The notes under the pieces were generated by a model. That model had not been told where the DNA came from and made no database searches. It saw nothing but the letters and a program-made list of their open reading frames with translations. From NCBI RefSeq assembly GCF_003987275.1, contig NZ_PIQF01000002.1, positions 310,001-374,000 of the forward strand: a stretch of 64,000 nucleotides of DNA, in the 5' to 3' direction. Source of the stretch: Idiomarina seosinensis (GTDB lineage: Bacteria; Pseudomonadota; Gammaproteobacteria; Enterobacterales; Alteromonadaceae). Position 1 is the first letter of the stretch, and every line of letters begins with the position of its first letter. Positions 39,987-47,578 of the stretch are shown here, piece by piece. Both the position numbers and the translations under genes were made by a program.

Positions 39987-40487
39987 ATGAGTAAGTCATT
40001 TAAACCTATTATCGCCTCCGTCGGCACCGCATTTGCAATTGGCGCATCCATGCCTGCCGTTAGTGCCAGCGACAATCCGTTTGCATCGGTTGAGTTAGCG
40101 TCAGGCTACGAGACTAGCATAGCTCAGGAAGGTAAATGTGGGGGCGATAAGAAAGAAGAAAAGTCAGAGAAGTCCATGAAAGAAGGTAAGTGTGGTGAAG
40201 GCAAATGTGGCGAAGGTATGATGTCTGAGAAAGCCCACGAAGCCAAACATGCGGCAGAAGAAAAAGCCAAAGAAGGTAAGTGCGGCGAAGGCAAATGTGG
40301 CGAAGGTATGATGTCTGAGAAAGCCAAAGAAGCTAAGCACCAGGCAGAAGAGAAAGCCAAAGAAGGCAAGTGTGGCGAAGGCAAATGTGGTGAAGCTATG
40401 ATGTCCAAAAAAGCCAAAGAAGCTAAAGAAGCCAAGGACAAAGCGGAGCAGAAAGCCGAAGAAGGTAAGTGTGGCGGAGCAGCTTGA
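39987..40487 (+). CDS. hvfA: HvfA-type RiPP precursor with eight EGKCG motifs
   Basis: The 166-residue precursor has a signal peptide ending near PAVSA (residue 27), so the product is exported. All eight cysteines (51, 69, 74, 99, 104, 129, 134, 162) lie in Glu-Gly-Lys-Cys-Gly motifs. In HvfA-type peptides of Haemophilus, such cysteines are converted to copper-binding oxazolone/thioamide groups by the HvfB/HvfC enzymes, both encoded next. The motifs sit in three near-identical 30-33 residue units (65-94, 95-124, 125-157) with Lys/Glu/Ala-rich spacers ending EKA, plus single motifs before and after. AAGAGGA precedes the ATG. The 3' end overlaps hvfB by 17 bp. Modification and copper binding are inferred by family. 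Confidence 0.93.
   Translation: MSKSFKPIIASVGTAFAIGASMPAVSASDNPFASVELASGYETSIAQEGKCGGDKKEEKSEKSMKEGKCGEGKCGEGMMSEKAHEAKHAAEEKAKEGKCGEGKCGEGMMSEKAKEAKHQAEEKAKEGKCGEGKCGEAMMSKKAKEAKEAKDKAEQKAEEGKCGGAA
40179..40457 (+). repeat. Three tandem repeats of about 90 bp within hvfA
   Basis: Units at 40179-40268, 40269-40358 and 40359-40457 encode KEGKCGEGKCGE(G/A)MMS followed by a helical Lys/Ala/Glu spacer. Units 1 and 2 differ by few bases; unit 3 is 9 bp longer and more divergent. Each adds two modification motifs, so recombination or slippage between units would change the number of metal sites in steps of two. Confidence 0.9.
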
Positions 40488-41322
40488 TATACGAGGCGTA
40501 GGGCTAGGCTACCGTCGTTCAATGTACCAGGAGCTGGTCGAAAACGATCAGCTCTCTTTGGACTTTCTAGAAGTAGCGCCCGAAAACTGGATGAACGCGG
40601 GGCCTCGCCACCAACATCAGTTGCGCGAGTTAACCGAGCGTTTTCCATTTTCAACACACGGCCTCTCACTGTCGATTGGAAGCCCGGTTCCCCTCGATAT
40701 TGAGTTTGTTCAGCGGGTTAAAGCGTTTCTCGATGAACACCAAATCGATACCTACACCGAGCATCTGAGTTTCTGCTCAGATGAAGGTCATTTATATGAC
40801 TTACTGCCAATTCCTTTTACCGAACAAGCAGTCGACTATGTCAGCGAGCGGATCCGCAGAGTCAGTGATGTCCTTGAACGGCGTATTGCTCTTGAAAATG
40901 TGTCATTTTACGCCATGCCGCCCGGAGAGATGAGCGAACTTGATTTCATTAACTCGGTATTGGAAAAAGCCGATTGCGACCTGCTACTTGATGTCAATAA
41001 CGTCTACGTCAATAGCGTTAATCACGGTTACGACCCGCTACATTTTATTAATCAATTACCAAGTGAACGTATTCGGTACCTGCATATTGCCGGCCACTAT
41101 CAACAGGACTCTGACCTGATTATTGATACTCATGGGGCGGATGTTATCGACCCCGTTTGGGAACTCCTAAAAGCAACATATTCACGCCATGGCCAGCGGC
41201 CAACTTTATTAGAGCGCGACTTTAATATTCCATCGCTGGCAACGCTGGATAATGAACTCTCTAAGATCCGTCAACTGAAATCACAGGCGGCAATAGCTCC
41301 TGCTCAAACGAGTCTGGTATGA
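40471..41322 (+). CDS. hvfB: DUF692 multinuclear non-haem iron oxidase (HvfB type)
   Basis: MNIO enzymes use two or three iron ions and O2 to rework cysteine residues in peptide precursors. The 283-residue TIM-barrel protein shows the family pattern: GLGYRR at the start, FSTHGLSLSIG, YTEHLSF, IALENVSFY, LLLDVNNVYVNSVNHG, YLHIAGHY, IDTHGADV and LLERDFNIP, which supply the His, Asp and Glu iron ligands. GTG at 40471 overlaps the hvfA end by 17 bp and has GAAGG 5 nt before it. It overlaps hvfC by 4 bp. The expected substrate is the adjacent hvfA product. Confidence 0.94.
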   Translation: MAEQLDIRGVGLGYRRSMYQELVENDQLSLDFLEVAPENWMNAGPRHQHQLRELTERFPFSTHGLSLSIGSPVPLDIEFVQRVKAFLDEHQIDTYTEHLSFCSDEGHLYDLLPIPFTEQAVDYVSERIRRVSDVLERRIALENVSFYAMPPGEMSELDFINSVLEKADCDLLLDVNNVYVNSVNHGYDPLHFINQLPSERIRYLHIAGHYQQDSDLIIDTHGADVIDPVWELLKATYSRHGQRPTLLERDFNIPSLATLDNELSKIRQLKSQAAIAPAQTSLV

Positions 41323-42110
41323 AGCAACCGCCAACCCACGAATTCGATGAAGTACAGCGCGCCTTTACCAACTACGTGCGCGATCCTGACTCCCATGCTA
41401 TCGAGGAAAACCATTTAGCGGGCATCGAACCCCGCCGGCTGGAGGTTTATAAAGAGCTGTTTTTTAACAACCTGCACAGTTTTACCCGAACTGCGTTCCC
41501 GGTGGCTTACTCGATTATGGGTAAGGAGTGGTGGTCACAGGCGGTAAGAATATTTTTACAGGAACATCGATGCCACAGCCCCTATTTTAACGAGATCGCC
41601 GGCGAGTTTTTAGGTTTTCTGCGCGAGCGGCAACAGCCGATTGGTGATACACCAGACTTTTTACCAGAACTCATGCATTACGAATGGGTGGAATTGGCAT
41701 TGGATAACGTACCTACTGATACCAATAAATTAGCAGCGACTCTAAGCGACGATCTGGTGAGCGGAAAACCTGTCATTTCACCGGCCGCATGGTTACTGAG
41801 TTATGAATACCCCGTTTACGAAATAACGGTTGATAACCAGCCCTCACCAGAACAGAAAAAACCAACCATTGTGCTGGTCTTTCGTAAGCCCGACTTCAGT
41901 ATCGGCTTTCGCCTACTGACGCCTGTATTTGCAATGCTTTGGCAAGCACTGCTAGACACTGAGGTAAAATCCGGCAAAGAGGCTATTGCCGCAGTCGCAA
42001 AACAGCTTCAAGTTGAATGCAATCCTCAATTCGTTAACCACGCCAGCGATGCACTAACCGAGTTGATGGAATGGGGCGCCATTCTTGGTGCCGAGTCGGA
42101 AAACTCATAA
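41319..42110 (+). CDS. hvfC: DUF2063 partner protein (HvfC type)
   Basis: HvfC-type proteins form a complex with the DUF692 enzyme and present the precursor peptide. The 263-residue protein has the DUF2063 N-terminal domain: FTNYVRDP, GIEPRRLEVYKELFFNNLHSFTRTAFPVAYSIMG, and HCRHSPYFNEIAGEFLGFL. The helical WVELALDN segment and a beta-rich C-terminal domain follow. It overlaps hvfB by 4 bp and ends the operon; its stop overlaps the convergent comM stop by 6 bp. No DoxX-like hvfD, transporter or protease gene follows. Confidence 0.92.
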   Translation: MKQPPTHEFDEVQRAFTNYVRDPDSHAIEENHLAGIEPRRLEVYKELFFNNLHSFTRTAFPVAYSIMGKEWWSQAVRIFLQEHRCHSPYFNEIAGEFLGFLRERQQPIGDTPDFLPELMHYEWVELALDNVPTDTNKLAATLSDDLVSGKPVISPAAWLLSYEYPVYEITVDNQPSPEQKKPTIVLVFRKPDFSIGFRLLTPVFAMLWQALLDTEVKSGKEAIAAVAKQLQVECNPQFVNHASDALTELMEWGAILGAESENS

Positions 42111-43805: not shown

Positions 43806-44186
43806 ATGTTCCATCAACTGAATCAACAGTGTCGAAAAACTCAGTATGTAGCACCTTTGCTATTGCTGATTTTTACGTTGTGTTGGGGGCAAAACTTTGG
43901 TTGGCTGGAGGGCTGTCCTAAACATCAGGGCGCGCCAGCGGCTGAACAGCTTGCAGGAAGCCATGCGGACCTGGGTACAAAACAAGAGAGCAGCAAAGCC
44001 GACTGCGACAAGACCACGCATTTATTGCAGCAGTTCCAGTCCGATATCACCTACGCGGCGCTGTCTTTCTTTATTCTTTTGACTTTGGTGCTGAAAACCT
44101 CTGTTAACAAGCAATTAGCGCCCCCGCTATTTTTCTTTTTCTGTAAAAGGCGACCCCACGCCGTATTTTGTTGCTTTCTGGAGTAG
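43806..44186 (+). CDS. scsA: Small membrane protein at the ScsA position
   Basis: The 126-residue protein has an N-terminal membrane helix (about residues 15-30), a periplasmic loop with GCPKHQG and KADCDK, a second helix (about 78-94) and an odd tail of phenylalanines and cysteines (FFFFCKRRPHAVFCCFLE). It leads the scsB-scsD-scsC genes by 49 bp, the place of ScsA. Similarity to Salmonella ScsA is not certain from motifs alone. The paired cysteines suit a redox or copper-related role. Confidence 0.6.
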   Translation: MFHQLNQQCRKTQYVAPLLLLIFTLCWGQNFGWLEGCPKHQGAPAAEQLAGSHADLGTKQESSKADCDKTTHLLQQFQSDITYAALSFFILLTLVLKTSVNKQLAPPLFFFFCKRRPHAVFCCFLE

Positions 44187-44189
44187 CGC

Positions 44190-44214
44190 TTCCAACCGAT
44201 TTGCATCGTTGGAA
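44190..44214 (+). repeat. Stem-loop between scsA and scsB
   Basis: TTCCAAC(C)GAT and ATCGTTGGAA form a 10-bp stem with one bulged C and a TTGC loop, 3 bp after the scsA stop and 21 bp before the scsB ATG. No T run follows, so it is not a simple terminator. It may be an operator, attenuator or RNA processing site. Confidence 0.6.
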
Positions 44215-44235
44215 TACTAACTTCAGGAGTAATGT

Positions 44236-46323
44236 ATGAATAAAATTTTACCGTTATGGCTGCTATCGCTGATTGCAGCGCTGCTGCTTTATAGCGCTCA
44301 AAGTTTAGCGGAGACACCGTCTACCGGTTGGTTAAGTCATAAAGACCACCCGCCGGTATCTGTAAAGCTGGAACTCACTGGCAATTATGAGACTGAGCGC
44401 AACCTAATACCCGCCCTGCTACATGTTGAGCTGGACGAGGGCTGGAAAACTTACTGGCGTTCACCTGGCGAAGGTGGCATACCACCGACCTTTGATTGGT
44501 CTGAGTCATCCAATATTAAGAATATTGAATGGCACTGGCCGGTTCCTTCACGCTATAGCATTCAGGGTATTGATACCGTCGGGTATCAGGGCTCGTTGAC
44601 CTTTCCGTTAATGATACAACTAAGGCCCGATGCCCGACGGGCGCGCATTCGTGGCACGCTGACTATGTCGTCGTGTACCACCGTTTGTGTTCTCACCGAC
44701 TACCCTATTAACTTAAAAGTTGAGCTGGACACCCTGATCGTCGACAGTGACCGTGCCTTTGCCTTTAATCAGGCCATGGGTAAAGTGCCTCGAGAATACG
44801 ATAGCAATAAGGTCAAGCAGGCTATTTGGTCAGACAAAAGCCAGCGCGTTCAACTGACTATTGAACGTGACAGCGGTTGGCAAGATCCTCAGCTGTTTAT
44901 ACACAGCAACGACGATGCGCTGGCCGATGCAACCTTTTCATCTCCCGATATTCAAGTGGAAGGAAATAGACTCACAGCGCATGTTGATGTAACCCACTGG
45001 CTGGAGCTGCCGGATCTTAGCGGAGCTGAACTCATCGCCACGGTCAGTGATGAAAACTTCGCCGCCGAATATAAGGTTCCACTAGCGGCAGGGACCATTG
45101 CTGATAACTCACTTCCGCTCTGGGCCATTCTACTTATGGCGCTAGTCGGTGGGCTTATTCTGAACATTATGCCCTGCGTGTTGCCGGTATTAGGCTTAAA
45201 AGTGCAAAGTCTTATGTTGTCTGGCGCACAAGAACCTAGAGTCGTGCGTAAGCAGTTTTTTGCATCGTCACTGGGTATTATCAGTTCGTTTCTTATCATT
45301 GCCCTGGGACTTATTGCGCTTCGCTGGGCAGGCGGCTCTGTCGGCTGGGGAATTCAATTTCAGAACCCTTACTTCATTGCCGCATTAGTCGCTATTACCT
45401 GGGTATTCGCACTGAACCTAATGGGCGCCTTTGAGTTTAAATTACCGTCCTCTATAAACACCAGCGCCGCTACCGCCGGTGACGACAGCTACAAAGGACA
45501 CTTTCTTCAGGGCATGCTGGCTACGATACTGGCAACACCTTGTACTGCGCCCTTTTTAGGTACCGCGGTAGCCTTTGCTTTGGCCGCTGAGTCATCGGTA
45601 ATTCTACTGATATTTGCTGCTCTGGGCATTGGTATGGCACTGCCATGGTTACTCATAGCGGTTTTCCCGAAAACAGCGAAGTTACTGCCCAAACCCGGCC
45701 GCTGGATGCAATGGGTGAAGCCAATTTTCGCCATTATGATGCTGGCAACGACCGCCTGGCTGACAGCCTTGCTGAAAAACTTTATCAGTCATGAGTTGTT
45801 CCTGGCGCTCGCCGTCGGTTTATCGGTTCTAACATTGCTTATTATTGGTAAAATTCATGGCCGCAAAGCGCTGTTTTTATCCATTGGCGGCTTCTTAGTA
45901 TTGGCTGCAGTTGTCGGCACGACGTTAATACTCACCGCTGACCGTTGGGTCAACAAACTGCCCCAGGACCACCAGTGGCAGGTATTAACGCAGGAGCGTA
46001 TTGATGCAGCTGTTGCTAACGGTCAAACCGTATTTGTGGATGTGACCGCGGACTGGTGTATCACTTGCCAGGCCAATAAAGTGGGTGTACTGCTACAAGA
46101 CCCGGTATTTACTGCCCTGGGGCAGCAGCATGTTACTCGCCTTCGCGGCGACTGGACGAAAGCAAACGAGAACATTACCCAATACCTGAAGGCCAACAAC
46201 ACCTTTGGTGTACCATTTAACAAAGTCTATGGACCCGCTGCCCCGGACGGTATCCGCCTGCCTGTGGTGCTTAGTAAAGGCAAAGTAATGGACACCCTGG
46301 AGGATGCCCGTGCGCAACAATAA
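44236..46323 (+). CDS. scsB: ScsB/DsbD-type transmembrane thiol reductase
   Basis: ScsB carries electrons from cytoplasmic thioredoxin to periplasmic partners such as ScsC. The 695-residue protein has a signal peptide and an N-terminal beta-rich periplasmic part (about residues 27-290) with CTTVC, replacing the short DsbD alpha domain. The 8-helix core carries the redox Cys in MPCVLPVLG and TPCTAPFLG. The C-terminal thioredoxin domain has DWCITC near residue 606. AGGAG lies 6 bp before the ATG. The extended N-terminal domain distinguishes it from DsbD. Confidence 0.94.
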   Translation: MNKILPLWLLSLIAALLLYSAQSLAETPSTGWLSHKDHPPVSVKLELTGNYETERNLIPALLHVELDEGWKTYWRSPGEGGIPPTFDWSESSNIKNIEWHWPVPSRYSIQGIDTVGYQGSLTFPLMIQLRPDARRARIRGTLTMSSCTTVCVLTDYPINLKVELDTLIVDSDRAFAFNQAMGKVPREYDSNKVKQAIWSDKSQRVQLTIERDSGWQDPQLFIHSNDDALADATFSSPDIQVEGNRLTAHVDVTHWLELPDLSGAELIATVSDENFAAEYKVPLAAGTIADNSLPLWAILLMALVGGLILNIMPCVLPVLGLKVQSLMLSGAQEPRVVRKQFFASSLGIISSFLIIALGLIALRWAGGSVGWGIQFQNPYFIAALVAITWVFALNLMGAFEFKLPSSINTSAATAGDDSYKGHFLQGMLATILATPCTAPFLGTAVAFALAAESSVILLIFAALGIGMALPWLLIAVFPKTAKLLPKPGRWMQWVKPIFAIMMLATTAWLTALLKNFISHELFLALAVGLSVLTLLIIGKIHGRKALFLSIGGFLVLAAVVGTTLILTADRWVNKLPQDHQWQVLTQERIDAAVANGQTVFVDVTADWCITCQANKVGVLLQDPVFTALGQQHVTRLRGDWTKANENITQYLKANNTFGVPFNKVYGPAAPDGIRLPVVLSKGKVMDTLEDARAQQ

Positions 46324-46837
46324 ATCGAAAGTGTCATGGGTAAAGCGATTAACAACGGCAGCCCTCTACGTATTGTTGTTCTCGACGGTGGCAGTGGTTG
46401 TTGACGCCTTCCGCAATAGTGATGTACCGGAGTCTGTTCCGGCCGAGCTTTCTTCGCTAACGGACATAAACGGCGAACAGTTCAACTTACGTGAAATGAG
46501 CAAGGACGGTCCGGTTGTGCTGTATTTCTGGGCAACCTGGTGTCCGGTCTGTCCAGCGGTATCGCCTACGGTTGACTACGCTGGACACTACTACCCCACC
46601 ATAAGTGTGGGCTTGCGCTCTGGCAGCAACGAAAAGCTAACCCAGTATGCGCAGGCAAAAGGGTATGAGTTTCCTATTGTTAACGACAACCTCAACCGCA
46701 TTTCTAGTGGCTGGCAGGTCTCTGCTACGCCAACCATTATCATTATTAAAAACGGTGACATTGTCTCGGCGACAACCGGAGTCACGACCCCTCCGGGTTT
46801 AATTATTCGCCTTTGGTTTCACCAGTTTTTTAAGTAG
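46310..46837 (+). CDS. scsD: ScsD-like membrane-anchored thioredoxin
   Basis: The 175-residue TlpA/ResA-type protein has one N-terminal membrane helix and a periplasmic thioredoxin fold with ATWCPVC near residue 74 and the cis-Pro segment SATPTIIII. GTG at 46310 has GGAGG 6 nt upstream; ATG at 46304 directly abuts it, so GTG is preferred. It overlaps the end of scsB. In Salmonella scsC precedes scsD; here the order is reversed. Confidence 0.92.
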   Translation: MRNNKSKVSWVKRLTTAALYVLLFSTVAVVVDAFRNSDVPESVPAELSSLTDINGEQFNLREMSKDGPVVLYFWATWCPVCPAVSPTVDYAGHYYPTISVGLRSGSNEKLTQYAQAKGYEFPIVNDNLNRISSGWQVSATPTIIIIKNGDIVSATTGVTTPPGLIIRLWFHQFFK

Positions 46838-46846
46838 GAAAATAGT

Positions 46847-47578
46847 ATGAATTTTATTTATAAAATGTTTTTCATTATTGCTGTTGTGTTTACCAGTAAT
46901 GTATTAGCACAAGATTTAACCCCGCAGCAAGCAGAGGAATTGGAGAAAGTCGAGCAACTATTACGCGAAAATCCGCAGCTGATTTCAAATATCCATCAAG
47001 GCTTGCAGCGCTTTTTAGAGCAACAAAGTGATCAGCAAAATGCATTTTCTGACCATCAGGAGTGGTTATATCAGTCAGCGGCACATCCGATTTTAGGCAA
47101 CAACGATGCAATGCATAAAATCATTGTCTTCACCGACTACAATTGCCCATTCTGCAAAAAATTAGAGCCCAGTCTGCATAAACTGGTTGAAGAATATCCG
47201 TCGATTCAAATAGTGAACGTGTTTGTGCCTTTACGGCAGCAGCAAGTGGATGGTCTTAAAACTAATTCGACGCTATATGGATTAAACCTGTGGCGCAATC
47301 ATCCCGATGCCTTCTTTGAGGCTCATAATCTGATGATGAAAAAATCGGGCATGCATACGGCTGACTCATTGCAAAGTGTTGCGCAGGTAACCGGTACCGA
47401 AGCGTTTTTATCACCGTCCGATGAGAGCGAAGCCGTTATTCGAAAAAACATGTCAGCGTTTCGCGACTTAGGTTTTCGCGGCACGCCGACTATTATCATT
47501 GGGCAGCAAGTAACTCCAGGCTACATTCCGTATGACAAGCTTGAAGCTATAGCCACAAAGCAATTTGAATTAGATTAA
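46847..47578 (+). CDS. scsC: ScsC-like DsbA-family periplasmic thiol oxidoreductase
   Basis: ScsC shuffles or reduces disulfides in the periplasm and binds copper in some species. The 243-residue protein has a signal peptide ending near VLAQ. An N-terminal helical region (residues 25-75, QQAEELEKVEQLL) may drive oligomerisation. The DsbA thioredoxin fold has DYNCPFCKK near residue 100 and cis-Pro in GFRGTPTIII. It follows scsD by 9 bp and is probably reduced by ScsB. Confidence 0.93.
   Translation: MNFIYKMFFIIAVVFTSNVLAQDLTPQQAEELEKVEQLLRENPQLISNIHQGLQRFLEQQSDQQNAFSDHQEWLYQSAAHPILGNNDAMHKIIVFTDYNCPFCKKLEPSLHKLVEEYPSIQIVNVFVPLRQQQVDGLKTNSTLYGLNLWRNHPDAFFEAHNLMMKKSGMHTADSLQSVAQVTGTEAFLSPSDESEAVIRKNMSAFRDLGFRGTPTIIIGQQVTPGYIPYDKLEAIATKQFELD

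Follow-up and report, generated by a model that had tools for sequence, protein, structure and literature searches.

The window, the whole 64,000-nucleotide stretch of the Idiomarina seosinensis genome that was analysed, carries three genes of the HvfABC type at positions 39987–42110. The open reading frames and their coordinates are those of an earlier note on this DNA, which had claimed a three-gene operon with overlaps of 17 and 4 bp: the frames of hvfA and hvfB share positions 40471–40487 (17 bp) and those of hvfB and hvfC share 41319–41322 (4 bp). These overlaps suggest translational coupling of the precursor gene with the enzyme genes. The features, in window positions, are:

39987–40487, forward strand: precursor gene, hvfA-type, 166 amino acids (open reading frame; NCBIfam model NF050137 passed, NF050188 missed)
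39987–40067, forward strand: putative Sec signal peptide of 27 amino acids ending in AVSA (from inspection of the translation alone)
40068–40127, forward strand: leader region SDNPFASVELASGYETSIAQ (pattern F-x(2,8)-[LM]-x2-G[YF] in relatives)
40128–40475, forward strand: core with eight EGKCG motifs and spacers of Lys/Glu/Ala; a Met pair follows each of the three doublets
40128, 40182, 40197, 40272, 40287, 40362, 40377 and 40461, forward strand: starts of the EGKCG codons
40461–40475, forward strand: codons of the last EGKCG, with a Shine-Dalgarno-like GAAGG and the GTG start of hvfB (40471–40473)
40471–41322, forward strand: multinuclear iron oxidase (MNIO) gene, hvfB-type (DUF692), 283 amino acids, GTG start (open reading frame, PF05114, NF003818, 3bww)
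41319–42110, forward strand: partner gene, hvfC-type (DUF2063 + NGO1945_C), 263 amino acids (open reading frame, PF09836, PF22106, NF050145, 3dee)
43806–47578: DsbD-, TlpA- and DsbA-like genes, the DsbD-like and thioredoxin-like part at 44236–47578

The cluster is preceded on the same strand by an ltaE-type aldolase gene and followed by a convergent comM-type gene (both names assigned by reading), so that no exporter or protease gene adjoins it. A profile search for DoxX (PF07681) found no match in the whole genome and was positive in 7 of 14 control genomes. The earlier remark that no DoxX-like, exporter or protease gene accompanies the precursor is borne out for the PF07681 family and for the adjoining genes. 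The MNIO gene is the only one in the genome. A promoter scan returned four sigma-70-like sites against 4.8 expected, which is chance, with none just before hvfA, and identified no copper-responsive promoter; a terminator scan of the locus was likewise at chance level, and RNA folding at the hvfA/hvfB junction gave a z of 0.00.

All eight cysteines of the precursor lie within its eight EGKCG motifs, in agreement with the counts given before. A degenerate codon pattern for the motif, GARGGNAARTGYGG, has eight forward and no reverse matches in the 2.69-Mb genome, all of them in the precursor, and the same pattern read backwards, as a control, has 0 and 1 matches. Since these eight coding copies are the sole matches in the genome, the array is not due to chance. 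A 90-nt unit (30 residues), repeated in tandem in 2.8 copies, makes up the core, with the motifs laid out 1-2-2-2-1. The precursor passes the KCGExKCG domain model of the HvfA family (NF050137; 38.1 bits, cut-off 19.5) and falls below the cut-off of the strict HvfA equivalog (NF050188; 34.2 versus 95 bits), and hence is a member of the HvfA family and, by that model, not HvfA proper. Pfam searching found no DUF2282 (bufferin 1) domain in it.

The hvfB product matches PF05114 (MbnB_TglH_ChrH; E 3.6e-106) and exceeds the cut-off of the NCBIfam HvfB model NF003818 (434.1 versus 360 bits) while not reaching that of the bufferin maturase model NF050167 (274.2 versus 310 bits). The hvfC product matches PF09836 (DUF2063; 2.7e-25), PF22106 (NGO1945_C; 2.1e-18) and the NCBIfam HvfC model NF050145 (245.3 versus 142 bits). 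Their best solved matches are PDB 3bww (E 2.2e-71) and 3dee (E 9.7e-11), from Histophilus somni and Neisseria gonorrhoeae, respectively (PMC12668002; here and below, papers are cited for the passages that concern these clusters). We compared HvfB with 109 other HvfB loci (29 + 80, best matches listed), of which 106 entered an alignment of 107 rows that includes the window, one stop-containing sequence and two duplicates having been dropped. Among these listed matches R15 is kept in 105 and R16 in all of the 106 ungapped rows, and D250, F251, N176, D219 and H221 are each present in 107/107 rows. R15, R16, D250 and F251 match R15, R16, D249 and F250 of FonB, a set reported for EGKCG-type enzymes; D249 is required for FonB activity and the other three influence substrate selectivity (PMC12668002). 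N176, D219 and H221, mapped by motif position through 3bww, would correspond to the site-3 residues N175, D242 and H244 of HvfB (PMC13419390). With curated NCBIfam models and conserved catalytic and selectivity residues in accord, membership of the HvfA/B/C family of RiPP systems, as first proposed from the sequence, is near certain.

We consider it very likely that this HvfABC-type cluster (Buf_EGKCG, 'captophorin') makes a periplasmic 5-thiooxazole peptide that sequesters Cu(I) and protects the cell from copper stress. HvfA would be synthesized with a Sec-type signal peptide, the HvfC partner would bind the HvfA leader NPFASVELASGYE, and the iron oxidase HvfB would convert each EGKCG cysteine to a 5-thiooxazole closed onto the carbonyl of the preceding lysine, with loss of 4 H per cysteine and up to 32 H over all eight. 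Export would then deliver the modified peptide to the periplasm, where it would sequester Cu(I) and relieve copper stress. Gene content, family membership, conserved residues and the co-occurrence, within the genus, of array and enzyme were computed here; modification, leader recognition, export, copper binding and the stress role of the product we infer from characterized relatives, in which 4 H are lost per modified cysteine and copper is bound (PMC12668002, PMC12538549).

The relatives also show how ordinary the precursor is. After removal of 18 loci without an open reading frame of at least two KCG within 1.5 kb upstream, three truncated at the edge of a contig or locus and two duplicates, 86 of the 109 loci remained, and the single open reading frame richest in KCG was counted at each. 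Precursors of these 86 relatives among the matches listed have 2–16 KCG, with a median of eight, and 48 of the 86 have eight or more. Unusual motif number, which we considered as a distinguishing feature, was therefore rejected. The leader pattern F-x(2,8)-[LM]-x2-G[YF] recurs in 84 of the 86 relatives among the matches listed, and the corresponding leader SDNPFASVELASGYETSIAQ is likely to be recognized by the HvfC partner. MNIO genes are common in the surrounding taxonomic family, where 107 of 147 genomes have a match with an E-value of 1e-20 or lower.

Published systems place the locus similarly. About 2,000 Buf_EGKCG precursors of 31–506 residues have been described, including a Pseudoalteromonas protein with 58 cysteines, and most of their clusters are core genes in varied combinations (PMC12452194); the earlier statement that the family is known stands. 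Its suggestion of novelty does not hold for the motif number or for the three-gene layout, which are already covered by Microbulbifer, Pseudoalteromonas and Fontimonas cases along with the 86-relative sample. The mmrABC clusters of Microbulbifer, which make bulbicupramide, share with the window three genes, no nearby protease and cassettes of two EGKCG, with 5–8 cysteines per precursor (PMC12538549); here, in contrast, the spacers are longer, rich in Lys/Glu/Ala and contain Met pairs, three doublets stand between two single motifs, and the precursor gene overlaps the MNIO gene. Fontimonas fonABC, a captophorin system encoding fontiphorin, shares the minimal A-B-C cluster, an EGKCG-type precursor and the R15/R16/Asp/Phe set, but has seven modified sites where the window has eight candidates (PMC12668002). 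Oxazolin, from HvfABC of Haemophilus, has EGKCG repeats, an HvfB-family MNIO and an HvfC-family DUF2063 partner in common with the window; it carries six 5-thiooxazole groups (PMC13419390) against eight motifs here, and the precursor of the window scores below the HvfA equivalog cut-off, as given above. Type 1 Buf_EGKCG/oxazolin precursors also consist of repeat units with two EGKCG each, but their repeats are of 17 residues and modelled as a beta-helix (PMC12452194), whereas the unit here is of 30 residues and a low-confidence single-sequence model predicts helices and no strands. Local quirks apart, the locus is clearly an ordinary member of a family that is widespread and was described recently. 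To that copper-handling RiPP family it contributes a long-spacer precursor that has Met pairs, a finding that would in itself not surprise a specialist.

In a set of 19 Idiomarina-genus genomes, own included, nine contain a match to HvfB at 52% identity or above; the match in G153 contains a TAA and so may be truncated. The other ten lack the system. At least two EGKCG codon motifs are present in 9/9 HvfB-bearing genomes and 0/10 of the others, a comparison that does not amount to 19 independent trials since the genomes are related. Four of the 19 (G000, G028, G160 and G148) have hvfABC between ltaE and comM (gene names by reading); the G028 locus duplicates that of Idiomarina aquatica. Another four of the nine HvfB-bearing genomes (G147, G150, G153 and G154) have the precursor on the same contig as hvfB but hundreds of kilobases away. 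These unlinked EGKCG precursors (L129–L132) have 5–8 cysteines, and both of those whose surroundings were listed (L129 and L131) lie between lysC-like and undecaprenyl-diphosphatase-like genes (names by reading). Among the ten genomes below that identity threshold nine have no motif and G104 has one, in the tail QEMKCDEGKCGESQCEV of a lysC-like open reading frame with AA_kinase and ACT domains (L133, contig G104:C10, frame 685–2082). This tail resembles QEMKCGEGKCGE of those unlinked precursors, and is probably a relic of a precursor left after loss of the enzymes. The genus thus offers a natural comparison of linked clusters, unlinked but co-occurring precursors, a probable relic and genomes with neither, and such co-occurrence could help to identify what MNIO enzymes lacking an adjacent precursor gene act on. 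Two distant MNIO matches, in G104 (L127, 33% identity) and G028 (L128, 30% identity, containing a TGA), are each preceded by a precursor of the DUF2282 (bufferin 1) type.

That the array is the substrate of the adjacent enzyme can be set against a reading in which a low-complexity, LEA-like Lys/Glu/Ala repeat protein stands by chance before an unrelated DUF692 gene. The one Pfam match of the precursor is indeed to LEA_4, at 20.8 bits against a cut-off of 51.1, and AlphaFold, run on the single sequence, gives an uninformative model of low confidence (mean pLDDT 50.8), a coil that has helices in the spacers and no strands. Confinement of 8/8 cysteines to EGKCG, a leader pattern common to nearly all the relatives counted above and the co-occurrence of array and HvfB in the genus nevertheless leave that reading scarcely any credence. 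The chemistry of the product has its own alternative, in which each modification would be an oxazolone/thioamide pair, the structure given for HvfB/HvfC products in the earlier note. This was the first assignment for oxazolin, as told in PMC12668002, and involves an identical mass change; moreover, a 2025 preprint left the choice of structure open for a Neisseria EGKCG peptide (PMC12636315). However, alkylation-assisted HMBC excluded oxazolone/thioamide for fontiphorin, oxazolin and gonophorin, all three of which were assigned 5-thiooxazoles (PMC12668002), and a later Haemophilus preprint writes oxazolin as a 5-thiooxazole too (PMC13419390). On the strength of these two papers the earlier chemistry is probably out of date, and we regard oxazolone/thioamide pairs in place of 5-thiooxazoles as very improbable here. 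A test by mass loss fits either structure.

A 5-thiooxazole peptide of this family might still serve another purpose, such as handling another soft metal, defence against oxidative stress, or acquisition of copper rather than its detoxification. DsbD-like and thioredoxin-like genes do lie 2–5 kb downstream, in a redox cluster at 43806–47578 that we take to resemble the Scs type. Ten of the 19 genus genomes have a match of at least 85% identity to the DsbD-like protein, always near comM, and only two of these ten have hvf between ltaE and comM. Since the redox cluster is near comM irrespective of hvf, it is no evidence for hvf function. A copper neighbourhood based on these Scs-like genes, also considered, was rejected for the same lack of specificity to hvf carriers (2/10). 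In the promoter scan and among the neighbouring redox genes, nothing at the locus points to copper specifically. For another role speak bufferin domains fused to MerC, with other metal stresses suggested (PMC12452194), but the EGKCG products that have been characterized bind copper (PMC12668002). We therefore rate a different role as unlikely; by analogy with those products, the peptide most likely buffers copper in the periplasm.

The quirks of the locus concern the end of the array and the Met pairs. GAAGG within the last EGKCG codons is the presumed ribosome-binding site of hvfB. In all four clusters between ltaE and comM (4/19 genus genomes, own included) the nearest hvfB start is a GTG inside the last EGKCG codons. 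Its distance from GAAGG is 5 nt here and 8 nt in the other three, where hvfA and hvfB overlap by 11 bp instead of the 17 bp seen here. This GTG is the sole in-frame start before the conserved GLGYRR in three of the four, G148 having a second possible start two bases before the last motif. By comparison, a gap of 3–368 nt lies between precursor and MNIO gene in 84 of the 86 relatives among the matches listed, the two that overlap being the Idiomarina loci. E[AG]MM follows 3/3 EGKCG doublets in three of the linked clusters and 3/4 in G148, although these copies are not independent since repeats homogenize. Of the 86 precursors among the matches listed, KCGE[AG]MM is confined to the two from Idiomarina (three each) and one from Shewanella chilikensis (L109; one copy). 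It is conceivable, though decidedly speculative, that two thiooxazoles and a conserved Met pair form a mixed thiolate/thioether Cu(I) site, and that the last EGKCG codons couple synthesis of the oxidase to a complete precursor. The Met-pair and start-in-motif features do not appear in the main-text passages searched in PMC12452194, PMC12538549, PMC12668002 and PMC12636315. Elsewhere, a precursor in G158 (L137, 2555–3010, minus strand) has two EGKCG, four cysteines, four MM pairs and a long Lys/Glu-rich stretch; its own MNIO and partner genes follow it and a TPR-like gene precedes it.

The history of the cluster was approached through an HvfB tree of 50 rows, comprising the window, 43 chosen from the 107-row set and six further rows from the genus. 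The window belongs to a clade of four rows (support 100/99) separate from a second four-row clade of the genus (99/93). At 89/99 the second clade is united with rows from the same GTDB family and from Shewanella, Pseudoalteromonas and Ferrimonas, and that of the window groups with Methylophaga and Thiomicrorhabdus rows at 94/93, below the starred threshold. Placement of L127 and L123 is unsure because of their long branches. That the two clades group apart suggests that hvf in the genus has two origins and that the interval between ltaE and comM may be a site of acquisition. The ends of the ltaE and comM matches lie 29 bp from each other in G157; the gap is occupied by other small genes in G154 (L135, 1245–1595) and in G132 (L136, 1790–2439). 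One of the L136 genes has a CopG antitoxin match below the cut-off (22.3 versus 28 bits), and the small genes there are possibly a toxin-antitoxin pair. The comM-type gene of five genomes (G028, G147, G151, G149 and G072) is represented by two separate match pieces that break near residues 280–306, about 23 kb apart in G028 and on different contigs in G147 and G072, as if an island had been inserted.
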